Below, in pieces: positions 40,834-45,283 of a stretch of DNA of 60,026 nt (positions within the stretch are counted from its first letter, which is position 1; every line of letters starts with the position of its first letter). This DNA is from Candidatus Woesearchaeota archaeon. GTDB lineage: Archaea > Nanobdellota > Nanobdellia > Woesearchaeales > UBA10216. The stretch spans positions 1-60,026 of the forward strand of contig JACPTF010000020.1 in assembly GCA_016192915.1 (NCBI GenBank), given 5' to 3'. A program made the translations under genes and the position numbers. The notes under the pieces are model-generated. The model ran no database searches and was not told the origin of the DNA. It was given only the letters and a program-made list of their open reading frames with translations.

Positions 40834-41088
40834 ATGGCAACTGAAGCTAAACAGATAGACATTTTTGACAGGAAGGTGTTTGAATTGGCAAGAAAAATGC
40901 CAAACAAAACGCCAGAGCCCTTCTTTGCCTTGGAAGAATATGACCGCATCGGAAAACTGCGGATAAACTTTACATTAGACCCGGCCTTATACAAAGACTT
41001 CAAAGAATACTGTGAAAAGCACGGCCGCCAAATGAGCAAGTTCTTGGAAAGCGCGATGAAGAGGCGCAGGCAGCGAATATTTAAATAA
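40834..41088 (+). CDS. Ribbon-helix-helix-like small protein
   Basis: An 84-residue protein. Residues 41-78 read as a ribbon-helix-helix: LRINFTLDPALYKDFKEYCE, then KHGRQMSKFLESAM and a basic end. A TATA-like GTTTATAGGC is at about 40800-40809. It may be a stand-alone repressor or an orphan antitoxin; no toxin gene follows, because the tRNA gene comes next. Confidence 0.6.
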   Translation: MATEAKQIDIFDRKVFELARKMPNKTPEPFFALEEYDRIGKLRINFTLDPALYKDFKEYCEKHGRQMSKFLESAMKRRRQRIFK

Positions 41089-41113
41089 TACCAGTTGCCT
41101 TCAAACACGTATC

Positions 41114-41292
41114 GGCTGCCGTAGTGTACTGGTTGCATGCGGCCCTGTGGGTGACCCTTTTAGAAAAAGGTTCAATCCAAAAACGGATTAAATGTCACTA
41201 GACAGGCTTAGGACCGGGTTCGATCAGCCCTTTTGTTCGCTATCGCTCACAAAAGCGCTGGCGGAAAAGGCTCGAAAGTCCCGGCGGCGGCC
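41114..41292 (+). tRNA. tRNA-His (GTG) with two introns
   Basis: G-1 at 41114, then the acceptor GCTGCCG (41115-41121) pairs with CGGCGGC (41285-41291), discriminator C at 41292. The D stem is GTGT/GCAT. The anticodon stem is CGGCC/GGCTT with one C-T mismatch at 27-43, and the anticodon loop CTGTGGA carries GTG. Intron 1 (41151-41203) lies at position 37/38 and closes on GTGAC/GTCAC. Intron 2 (41225-41278) lies in the T loop at 59/60. There TTCG pairs with CGAA between the 3-base bulges ATC and AGT, and AGCC(C)TTTT pairs with AAAAGGCT, a canonical bulge-helix-bulge. Splicing leaves a seven-base T loop (TTCGATT) and a CCGGG/CCCGG stem. Confidence 0.85.
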
Positions 41293-41300
41293 CTTATCTC

Positions 41301-42068
41301 TTACCTACTCGTCGCAAGCTTGATGCATGAATAGAAAATGACTGCCCAAAGCACCATTCGCATGTTGAGCCTGTAGGCCTGGTCAACGCCTTCCCCGATG
41401 AGATTTATGCTTGCGCTTATGTCCTCAGCCTCTTTCAGCCTTTCTGCCGGAATCCTTTTTTTAATGTCAGCAAAGGTCGCTTTCTTGAGCTCCTCCTCAA
41501 GCGTAACGTGGAACAGGTAGCCGTTCCTAAAGCTCTCAGCCAGGTCACGCACCATCCCGGTATGCGCCTCGAATATAATGCCCTGATGGCTGAAGGAAAA
41601 GCCCTTGCTTCGCAGGACCTTCTCAAAATAAGCGCTTATCTCAGCGTTCACCCTTAACTTTTCCTCAGCTGTGCACAAGGTTGGGATGGCATTCAGCAGC
41701 CCTGCTGCCTTGCCAATGAATTCCTGCTGCAGAGCGATGACTTCCCGCCCGTACTGTAGATTATTAGCAAGAGGCAGGGCAAGCGACTTCAGGCACTCCA
41801 TTGTCCTTTTCAGGTCAACAGGCTCGTGCACAGGATCGTTCCTGGCCAAAAACTCGCCCAGCTTGGCAAGCACCGGGCCAAGCAGGTTCAGTGCGCGCTC
41901 AATAAGCGCAGTGTCATCATCAGAAACAATGCACTCGGCAAATACTTCCGAAACTTTTTTCTGGGTGAACGGAAAGCTGTCGGACATGTTCATGCCCCGC
42001 ACAAAAGGCACAGATTCAATCTCGGCTGATTTCGGGTTCAAATCAGAAAGCTTGTGGATGTAAAGCAT
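41301..42068 (-). CDS. Orphan helical protein
   Basis: A 255-residue, mainly helical, soluble protein. A short hydrophobic stretch near the C-terminus (MVLWAVIFYSCIKLA) may touch the membrane. No motif is recognised. It ends nine bases from the intron-bearing tRNA-His gene on the opposite strand. Confidence 0.5.
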   Translation of the reverse strand: MLYIHKLSDLNPKSAEIESVPFVRGMNMSDSFPFTQKKVSEVFAECIVSDDDTALIERALNLLGPVLAKLGEFLARNDPVHEPVDLKRTMECLKSLALPLANNLQYGREVIALQQEFIGKAAGLLNAIPTLCTAEEKLRVNAEISAYFEKVLRSKGFSFSHQGIIFEAHTGMVRDLAESFRNGYLFHVTLEEELKKATFADIKKRIPAERLKEAEDISASINLIGEGVDQAYRLNMRMVLWAVIFYSCIKLATSR

Positions 42069-42493: not shown

Positions 42494-42565
42494 GGCCGTA
42501 GTGGTGTAGAGGCAGCATTCGGGTCTGTGGCACCTGAGGGCAGGGTTCGAGCCCCTGATGCGGCC
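42494..42565 (+). tRNA. tRNA-His (GTG), no intron
   Basis: G-1 at 42494. Acceptor GCCGTAG (42495-42501) pairs with ATGCGGC (42558-42564) except at 7-66; discriminator C at 42565. D stem GTGT/GCAT, anticodon stem CGGGT/ACCTG, loop CTGTGGC with anticodon GTG (42527-42529). T arm CAGGG-TTCGAGC-CCCTG. It has the same anticodon as the gene 1.3 kb upstream, the same D stem and a four-base variable arm (AGGG against AGGA). It precedes the HisG-HisI-HisRS genes. Confidence 0.9.
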
Positions 42566-42689
42566 CTGACAAGGCTTTCTGAAGTGGAAATTCATCATCG
42601 CTGATGCCGTTGACGCTGCGGTTAAACGTCGTGGTGCAATATTTCTATTGAGATAAAAATTGCAGCGAGAGCTGCGGAGGATGGTTGAG

Positions 42690-43652
42690 ATGACCGATTC
42701 AGTAACAATTGCAATACCAGAAACAGGAAGGATGGCTCAGGAAACGCTTGAATGGCTTGCACAAAAAGGGGCCGTAAGCCAGGAATGGGCGGCAAAGGCA
42801 GCGGAAGCCATAGGGAATGTGCGAAAGCGTGATAACGAGACTGCTGCAAAAGATGACCTGCTTAAAAGATGGTCTGAAGGGCTGGAGGGCATTACCATAA
42901 AATATGACCTGAGAAGCGGCTGGCGGGTCGCGGTTTCAGCGGCACAAAGCAGGGTTGGCACAACACCTGTTGTTGTTTACGGCAGCTCGCCACCCACCAT
43001 TACAGGCATACGTGAAGGGCTTGCAGAAGTAGCTGTCATAGGGTTTGACGACCTAGTGGCAACGATGGTTCCTTACTTCGCAAACCGCACTGCTGACGGC
43101 GAAACTGCCGTAGCTTTAAGCATCCTTGCCAACCCTTGGACTACAGTTAACTACAAGCTATCATCTAAAAATATTACTGACGTCAGGGTGCTTGGGGCAA
43201 CTGGAATGAATGACTACGCAGGGCTGTGCTTGCTTGTATCAGAAAAAAGTAAAAGCCCAGAGCAGGCGCTCAATGAAACCAAGGAAGGCAAGCTACCTGT
43301 TTACGTCAAAGGCCGCTATCAAGGACTGGCTTACTACCTACTTGGCGACAAAATTGATGCCCGTGCCACCGAACGCATTGAAGAGGCGGTTAACGCTGAT
43401 AATGCGGCAGCAATTGACATTGTAAGGACAGGGGAGACTGTTCTCAAAAACCAACTGCTCGTTATTGGCAGGCAGCTTATGGTGACAAAGTCAGTTGTTG
43501 CAGTGGACATTACAAGATATAACGCCGACAAAAATGTGAAAACAGTTGCCGATATGGTTGTGCGAAACAGCCCAGGAGCTGACTTGGACTCCGCAGTGGC
43601 TTGGAGAAGAGCACTGGAAAACAAGCTCGGCAGCTCGTGGGTGAGAGAATGA
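42690..43652 (+). CDS. HisG-like ATP phosphoribosyltransferase homologue
   Basis: A 320-residue protein of the HisG fold: [20 protein letters not shown] at the N-terminus, then [12 protein letters not shown] in the position of the GITG-D region. The phosphoribosyl-phosphate loop follows as [16 protein letters not shown] (HisG: D-V-TG-TL). HisG joins ATP and PRPP in the first step of histidine synthesis. Similarity is weak outside these motifs, so the substrate is uncertain. ATG 42690 is chosen because GGAGG lies nine bases before it. Its stop overlaps the hisI start (ATGA). Confidence 0.6.
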
Positions 43653-43981
43653 GCCTTGACCAGAAAGTTGAGCCCGACTTTGCAAAGCGAGGCGGACTGG
43701 TCGTTGCAATAGCACAAGATACCGCAACCAAACAAGTGCTGATGCAGGCTTACATGAATAAGCAAGCATGGGAAGAAACCCTGAAAACCAGGAAAGCGAC
43801 ATACTGGAGCACAAGCCGCGATGAGCTATGGCCCAAAGGAGCCACGTCTGGCGACTGGCAGCTTGTCAGGGAAATTTACGTTGACTGTGACAGCGACGCA
43901 GTTTTACTAGTGGTTGAACAGCAAGGAAAGGGGGCATGCCACACTGGCAACTACAGTTGCTTTTACACAAAAGTTTTTTAA
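43649..43981 (+). CDS. hisI: Phosphoribosyl-AMP cyclohydrolase (HisI)
   Basis: A 110-residue enzyme that opens the adenine ring of phosphoribosyl-AMP in histidine synthesis. The zinc and magnesium sites are clear: [16 protein letters not shown], the Asp/Cys cluster in [15 protein letters not shown], and [11 protein letters not shown]. The length equals the stand-alone archaeal form. It is coupled to the HisG-like gene by the overlap ATGA. No HisE, HisA, HisF, HisH, HisB, HisC or HisD gene is in the window. Confidence 0.93.
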
Positions 43982-44005
43982 AACAGCAATCGGAAGGTGG
44001 GAATT

Positions 44006-45283
44006 ATGAAACTAGAACGAGCCAGGGGAACAAGGGACTTCGCGGCAGGGGATGCTTTGCTGCGGCAGCAGATAGTTACAACTCTCCGCAGCGTTTTTGA
44101 GCTTTACGGCTACAACCCTCTCGAGACTCCAATTTTGGAAAGGTTTGAAACCCTGGCTTCCAAGTATGCCGGCGGGGAGGAGATTCTGAAGGAAACTTTC
44201 AGGCTGAAGGACCAAGGAGGGAGGGAGCTGGGCATGAGGTATGATTTGACTGTGCCTATGTGCAGGTTCATTGCAACGAATCCAAACCTGAAGATGCCTT
44301 TCAAGAGGTACCAGATTGGCGTGGTGTTCAGGGACGGGCCACTCAAAACAGGGAGGTACAGGGAATTCATGCAGTGTGATGTTGATATTGTCGGGGTAAA
44401 GTCAATGGAGGCAGACGCGGAAATGGTACAGATTGCGCTTGCCGTATTTGAAAAGCTTGGGCTGGAAGTTGTGGTAAGAATAAATAGCAGGAAAATTTTA
44501 GATGCCACATTTTTAAAGAGTGGCATACCAAAAGATAAATTTGAAACAGTGATTCTGAGTTTGGATAAACTCTTAAAAATTGGAAGAGACGAGGTTAAAA
44601 AAGAGCTAGAAAATAAAGGAATAAGTAAAAAAGAAGTGGACAAGCTGTTTGGAGCATTCATTGGGTGGCAAGGTGGTGGAAAAAGCAATATAGAAGAGTT
44701 GAATAATCTTAGGAAGATATTGGGCAATAATGAAGGAATAGAAGAAATAAATGAGATACTAAATGCCGTTAATGACGAAAGAGTGTTGTTTAGTAGCACT
44801 TTGGCGCGAGGACTAGCATATTATACGGGAACTGTTTTTGAGGTTTTCTTAAAAGGTAAAGCAGGGATCACATCCGCTGTCGCAGCCGGCGGAAGATATG
44901 ACAAGATGATTGGGAATTTTGTTGGCGGCAATCGGGAGTACCCTGCGGTTGGGATTTCGTTCGGGCTTGACGTCATTACCGATGCCCTGAAACTCACAAA
45001 AGCGGAAAGGACAGTAACTATTACTAAGGTTCTAATTGCCTCAATTGGAAAGGACAAGGAAGCTGCTGAAATTGCTAAAAAGCTCAGAGACGCCGGCGTT
45101 AATTGCGCCACCGATTTTAGCGGAAAAGCAGGCAAAGCAATAGAATATGCCAACTACTATCTGATACCTTATGTTGCGTTTGTTGGCGCAAAAGAGGGCA
45201 AAGAAAAAGCAACGCTAAGGAACATGGAAAGCGGAAAGGAGGAATTACTTGCCGCCAATGACTTAATCAGGAGATTGGGTTAA
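44006..45283 (+). CDS. hisS: Histidyl-tRNA synthetase
   Basis: A 425-residue class II synthetase. Motif 1 is near residue 40, motif 2 in FKRYQIGVVFRDGPLKTGRYREF, and the histidine loop is LARGLAYYTGTVFE (usually RGLDYYTG; Asp is Ala here). Motif 3 is in YPAVGISFGLDV, and a C-terminal anticodon domain follows. ATG 44006 is chosen over 43997 because of GGTGGG upstream. By eye the middle of the gene (about 44470-44860) is much richer in A and T than both ends. The 3' end overlaps the map gene by 21 bases. Confidence 0.93.
   Translation: MKLERARGTRDFAAGDALLRQQIVTTLRSVFELYGYNPLETPILERFETLASKYAGGEEILKETFRLKDQGGRELGMRYDLTVPMCRFIATNPNLKMPFKRYQIGVVFRDGPLKTGRYREFMQCDVDIVGVKSMEADAEMVQIALAVFEKLGLEVVVRINSRKILDATFLKSGIPKDKFETVILSLDKLLKIGRDEVKKELENKGISKKEVDKLFGAFIGWQGGGKSNIEELNNLRKILGNNEGIEEINEILNAVNDERVLFSSTLARGLAYYTGTVFEVFLKGKAGITSAVAAGGRYDKMIGNFVGGNREYPAVGISFGLDVITDALKLTKAERTVTITKVLIASIGKDKEAAEIAKKLRDAGVNCATDFSGKAGKAIEYANYYLIPYVAFVGAKEGKEKATLRNMESGKEELLAANDLIRRLG

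Follow-up and report, generated by a model that had tools for sequence, protein, structure and literature searches.

A tRNA-His gene interrupted by two introns from multi-copy repeat families in a Woesearchaeal archaeon

The twice-interrupted tRNA-His gene

The window, i.e. the whole stretch of 60,026 nucleotides analysed here, contains a tRNA-His(GUG) gene (41114-41292) interrupted by two introns, of 53 nt at position 37/38 and of 54 nt at position 59/60, and, 1.2 kb away, a second, intronless tRNA-His(GUG), which was absent from the original prediction. The features are:

41076-41089, + strand: TATA-like promoter element aatatttaaataat, about 31 nt 5' of G-1, kept in six sister species
41114-41150, + strand: exon 1 of tRNA-His(GUG), G-1 to position 37 (sequence reading, ARAGORN, blind splice search)
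41151-41203, + strand: intron 1, 53 nt, position 37/38 (bulge-helix-bulge, BHB, with 11/12 pairs; junction uninterrupted in sister genome G006)
41152-41185, + strand: core of the R1 hairpin repeat within intron 1 (R1 model, 57 bits)
41204-41224, + strand: exon 2, positions 38 to 59 (ARAGORN, blind splice search)
41225-41278, + strand: intron 2, 54 nt, position 59/60 (perfect hBHBh', 12/12; T loop uninterrupted in G007 and four other sisters)
41225-41268, + strand: core of the R2 repeat within intron 2 (R2 model, 70.4 bits)
41279-41292, + strand: exon 3, positions 60 to 73 (C73) (ARAGORN, blind splice search)
42494-42565, + strand: second tRNA-His(GUG), intronless, paralogue of the split gene (ARAGORN, Rfam)

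As read, exon 1 (G-1 GCUGCCG UA GUGU ACUGGUU GCAU G CGGCC CUGUGG) is followed by the intron at 41151-41203, exon 2 (A GGCUU AGGA CCGGG UUCGAU) by the intron at 41225-41278, and exon 3 reads U CCCGG CGGCGGC C73; the intron boundaries originally proposed are exact to the base. Both G-1 and C73 are encoded, and CCA is not. The irregularities of the gene are a C27.U43 mismatch in the anticodon stem and a short D loop. Both introns have the two 3-nt bulges and the 4-bp helix of a BHB. In intron 2, which folds into this motif with z = -3.45, the helix UUCG/CGAA lies between the bulges AUC and AGU, just as had been claimed from the letters, and all 12 tested pairs form. Intron 1 forms 11 of the 12 pairs, with a single U.C mismatch in the 4-bp helix, and its orthologues in G005 and G007 form all 12.

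The same junctions emerged from a blind search, in which all BHBs with at least 11/12 pairs in 40901-41500 were collected, spliced singly and pairwise, and passed to ARAGORN, with the splice sites withheld. These 600 bp yielded 5 BHBs and 14 splice variants, of which one, the predicted double splice, was called as a tRNA, namely tRNA-His(gtg) with a score of 114.2; this search, which like the check suggested along with the original prediction allows for non-canonical introns, picks nothing else. The same BHB and ARAGORN procedure with a looser single-intron threshold gave no tRNA call in the remaining window (286 pieces, 31,452 spliced variants) and none among 11,222 spliced variants of shuffled sequence; a chance origin of the double splice is rejected on these nulls. 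Unspliced, the gene is detected neither by ARAGORN nor by Rfam, which returns sub-threshold noise only.

Orthologues in sister species and the second tRNA-His gene

We compared eight metagenome-assembled genomes of one Woesearchaeal genus, i.e. the genome of the window (G000) and seven sisters. Orthologous split tRNA-His genes are present in six sister species, each with a TATA-like element upstream, the spacing of which deviates in G002 from that in the other sisters. Both introns occur in G000, the 37/38 intron alone in G002, G003, G004, G005 and G007, and the 59/60 intron alone in G006. The T loop of G007, ...GGGTTCGATTCCCGG..., shows exactly the predicted junction in uninterrupted form, and in the anticodon loop of G006, ...CTGTGGCTCC..., there is no interruption either. 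At the level of sequence, the natural presence and absence of introns in these orthologues proves both splice junctions, and the reading of the locus as a tRNA-His with one intron in the anticodon loop and one in the T loop is upheld both by the double splice and by the sisters that lack one intron or the other. The 37/38 introns have different contents: the R1 repeat in G000 and G007, an R1 variant in G002, an R3-type sequence in G004 and G005, and a 19-nt remnant in G003.

In ten tRNA-His genes from the genus and one relative, the cloverleaf is 95.9% paired, with 8 pairs changed on both sides, and the G-1:C73 identity pair is invariant; when the partners are slid by 1-3 columns as a control, pairing falls to 39-54%. 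The intronless paralogue at 42494-42565 scores 112.5 in ARAGORN, against 114.2 for the spliced split gene. It lies just 5' of an uncharacterised ORF, hisI and hisS (window 42494-42565 and 43601-45283); a by-eye guess that the ORF at 42660-43652 is HisG was unsupported by Pfam. The paralogue may be an ordinary isodecoder or may play a part in the regulation of the his genes.

Since this second tRNA-His could cover decoding, the split gene might be dispensable, and it could then be regarded as a pseudogene, i.e. an old tRNA-His decaying by insertions and replaced by the intronless gene, whose proximity would fit such a history, as would the C27.U43 mismatch. However, the mismatch is common to all orthologues, the exons and the promoter are kept in seven species while the introns vary, both introns retain their BHBs, the stems show compensatory changes, and the two types of tRNA-His coexist in G000, G005 and G007. 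We consider decay very improbable.

The R1 and R2 repeat families

When used as a DNA query, the gene finds many other matches through its introns alone. The core of intron 1 is R1, a 34-nt hairpin repeat described by a covariance model. With E-values that are rough, as the models are home-made, R1 has 41 copies in G000 at E<=0.01, and the counts for the seven sisters are 84, 5, 1, 46, 29, 44 and 17; among 51 genomes that represent different genera and families within the order, no match reached E<=1e-5. The hairpin is dispersed outside genes, and R1 is dispersed in all eight genomes of the genus. Among 22 copies of G000 read by eye, about four are located within tRNA introns, four directly adjoin the end of a tRNA and one lies in carA, the rest being intergenic or at gene ends. 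The carA copy (L171:1023-1056, G000:C6:1722-1755) is inserted in frame between the two domains and encodes VTFLEKRSIKK. It occurs in this genome only: carA of G001, G004 and G007 has no R1, the matching stretch of G006 is too short to contain it, and the normal protein is also free of the insert. Other sites outside tRNA genes are filled in some species and empty in others, with alignments that are less exact in non-coding flanks.

Some R1 sites are common to several species, which would agree with R1 being immobile and its old sites having been lost independently in different species; presence and absence alone, moreover, give no direction without a tree. Against such a history stand the confinement of R1 to one genus, the near-identity of its copies, the range of copy numbers from 1 to 84, and the carA insertion itself, and we judge it unlikely.

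Several R1 copies have noteworthy surroundings. Copies in reverse orientation are often found next to the 5' end of a tRNA, from which a leader of 0-2 nt separates them, and copies in forward orientation adjoin tRNA 3' ends (L161, L163, L174, L227, L142, L150 and L281; L169, L254 and L206). At L044, L158, L141, L164 and L278, R1 is found at start codons, flanked by direct repeats of 12-28 bp that partly duplicate the first codons of the gene, and L259 (G001:C75:4869-5008) contains three tandem R1 units with a period of 53 bp.

Around 85 R1 copies we found no target duplication of fixed length. About 8% have flanking repeats scoring >=12, of varying length, and as these few repeats are often partial copies of gene starts or tandem arrays, there is no clear signature of target duplication. 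An origin of R1 from RAYT/IS200 elements was rejected, as G000 and G001 (84 copies) possess no Y1 transposase; this search, in the genomes with most copies, revealed no mobilising enzyme. At R1 copies outside tRNA genes, BHBs with at least 11/12 pairs are not clearly enriched, with a frequency of 0.23 versus 0.17 in shuffled flanks, so that R1 as a pre-mRNA intron was not adopted; this test has little power, because it is weak even on tRNA copies (0.33 versus 0.23).

The core of intron 2 belongs to a second family, R2 (44 nt), with 26 matches in G000 in a model search. At least ten tRNA genes of G000 carry an R2 intron at 59/60; the tRNA inventory was drawn from stretches around the matches and is incomplete. 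The introns interrupt tRNA-His, Asp, Lys-UUU and Glu-UUC, by-eye assignments add Tyr, Ile-UAU and Val-CAC, and three isotypes are unsettled. Over ten R2 introns, pairing reaches 100% in the T stem and 97.5% in the 4-bp BHB helix, where the exon/intron pair at position 57 covaries, G-C replacing A-U in His and Val. Other tRNAs carry T-loop introns outside the R2 family, of 25, 23 and 122 nt. In line with many interrupted genes, only 20 tRNA genes reach the Rfam cut-off in this 93%-complete genome. The assertion that double introns with one at 59/60 are rare outside thermophilic crenarchaea and some DPANN needs qualifying for this lineage, in which a related intron occupies at least ten tRNA genes and such introns are common. 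A second qualification is that the original prediction could not reveal both introns as members of multi-copy repeat families.

Other repeats were observed alongside these families. At L225 (G000:C3:17322 onward), GGCTGGCGGAAAAC units in tandem follow an R2-like element. Several tRNA introns and intergenic elements (L048, which is the T-loop intron of G006, L163, L220, L222 and L230) have a further hairpin repeat, CCCAAATCG-hairpin-CGATTGGGCCCAGTCG-hairpin-CGACTTGGG, nested in their loops, and a third intron core (..AAAAAGCTTGACCAAAAAACG) is likewise multi-copy.

The varied contents of the 37/38 introns among the sisters leave room for R1 having landed in an older intron at that position, in which case the repeats would be passengers and not the origin of the intron; the other hairpin repeat nested in the T-loop intron of G006 points the same way. 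Yet R2 sequence spans the entire T-loop insert between its two splice sites, in tRNAs whose sister counterparts have no intron at this position, and R1 units are themselves about the size of an intron. The passenger explanation has, in our opinion, a real chance of being right, if somewhat short of even. Both inserts of the tRNA-His gene belong to families repeated in its own genome and in sister species, and the interruptions therefore look recent and are possibly still spreading.

Splicing machinery, a model, and known systems

One gene for a tRNA-splicing endonuclease was found in seven of the eight genomes of the genus, its best solved relative being the catalytic subunit from N. equitans (3IEY); the enzyme of G000 (G000:C1:143582) has 199 aa. 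A divergent second subunit may have been overlooked. One-subunit endonucleases of the alpha-4 type have a reported preference for strict BHBs. The ligase RtcB was likewise found in seven of the eight genomes.

The rtcB gene itself has an insert of 31-32 nt after DAHEG in G000, G002, G003, G004 and G006, and a second one, of 32 nt, in the motif GIG|YDVNC in G000 and G003, while both sites are uninterrupted in G005 and G007. Unspliced, the frame stops at residue 67-70; spliced at the BHBs (4/4 central pairs), it encodes 473-474 aa. The two predicted junctions in L322 are GGAT|ACGG and GGAT|ATGATG. The helix h' of the inserts shows compensatory changes (CUAA/UUAG, CUGA/UCAG, CCAG/UUGG). Similar inserts occupy the same sites in other genera of the family (G008, G013, G014, G016 and G017), and G084 has a different one (loci: L322 at G000:C3:12300-14100, L323, L324, L325, L326, L356, L360, L361, L362 and L364). 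Given the early stop, full-length RtcB would be made only after splicing of its mRNA by RtcB itself; if these putative introns are real, the cells are capable of BHB splicing and the ligase is self-dependent. BHB introns in archaeal pre-mRNA are known from crenarchaeal cbf5 (PMC2738675), and the rtcB inserts look alike in calling for BHB splicing of a protein gene, with the difference that rtcB encodes the splicing ligase and that the cbf5 introns are crenarchaeal. We found no description of BHB introns in rtcB in open-access full text. In G005, rtcB (L327, G005:C15:47850-51100) is a single frame of 974 aa with an insert after DVNC that is probably an intein, and similarly long frames exist in G015, G044, G094 and G095.

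We infer that the tRNA-His precursor is spliced and that the repeats spread by copying. The locus very probably encodes a functional tRNA-His of a Woesearchaeal (DPANN) archaeon, the precursor of which would be cut twice by the BHB-specific endonuclease and its exons joined by RtcB to give a tRNA with the GUG anticodon, the encoded G-1:C73 pair and a seven-base T loop, its introns being drawn from multi-copy repeat families. R1, a dispersed hairpin repeat peculiar to this genus that occurs within protein genes and in the DNA between them as well, and R2, mainly at 59/60 in the T loops of many tRNAs, would arrive by a copying process; copies in tRNA genes would be spliceable wherever a BHB can form, and only such arrivals would persist there. 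The broader proposal, to which we give about an even chance, is that short hairpin elements spread in this DPANN genus as intergenic and intragenic repeats and, where a BHB forms, as tRNA introns, the split tRNA-His being a snapshot of ongoing gain and rtcB being spliced by its own product.

N. equitans has split tRNA halves and ARMAN a three-unit endonuclease, whereas in the present genome only one endonuclease gene was found. The present system resembles Nanoarchaeota and ARMAN in the non-canonical position 59/60, which is among those listed for Crenarchaeota and Nanoarchaeota (PMC4090602), and in its endonuclease, which is closest to 3IEY. Thermoproteales are known for multi-intron tRNA genes and transposition of tRNA introns (Sugahara 2008, Fujishima 2010; reviewed in PMC4033280, PMC4090602). 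They share with the Woesearchaeal genus several introns per tRNA at canonical and non-canonical positions, the recurrence of near-identical introns in unlike tRNA species and rapid gain between relatives; here too, similar introns recur across isotypes and their presence differs between close relatives. Unlike the thermophilic Crenarchaeota, however, the host is a groundwater Woesearchaeal DPANN archaeon, and the core of intron 1 is a dispersed repeat mostly outside tRNA genes, an arrangement of which we found no description in open-access full text. In Caldiarchaeum populations, intron gain in tRNA-Thr(GGU) has been linked to mobile DNA (PMC3293823), with presence and absence between close relatives as here. 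That case concerns one locus and an integrase-type element, whereas dozens of short hairpin repeats, with no evidence of an integrase, are found in this genus.

R1 is comparable to REP/REPIN sequences, MITEs and Rickettsia-type palindromic elements, which likewise are short hairpins in tens of copies that lie in intergenic DNA and now and then in frame within protein genes. It differs from all of these in its presence inside BHB tRNA introns, from REP/REPIN in the lack of a REP-associated (Y1) transposase in G000, and from MITEs of DDE transposons in the lack of a fixed-length target duplication.

Taken alone, the split tRNA-His belongs to a known class, as the 59/60 position and multi-intron tRNAs with transposed introns were known before. 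What goes beyond this class is the core of intron 1, a genus-specific dispersed hairpin repeat mostly outside tRNA genes; the picture is one of intron spread of the Thermoproteales kind in a Woesearchaeal genus, in combination with a dispersed repeat. For archaeal tRNA intron gain in general, transposition has been inferred in Thermoproteales, and a review calls the mechanism unknown (PMC4090602). In this genus the same short repeats turn up between genes, inside introns of tRNA genes and in a protein gene, and sites that are filled in one species are empty in close relatives. The origin of BHB introns can therefore be tested by site comparison and by an endonuclease/ligase assay.
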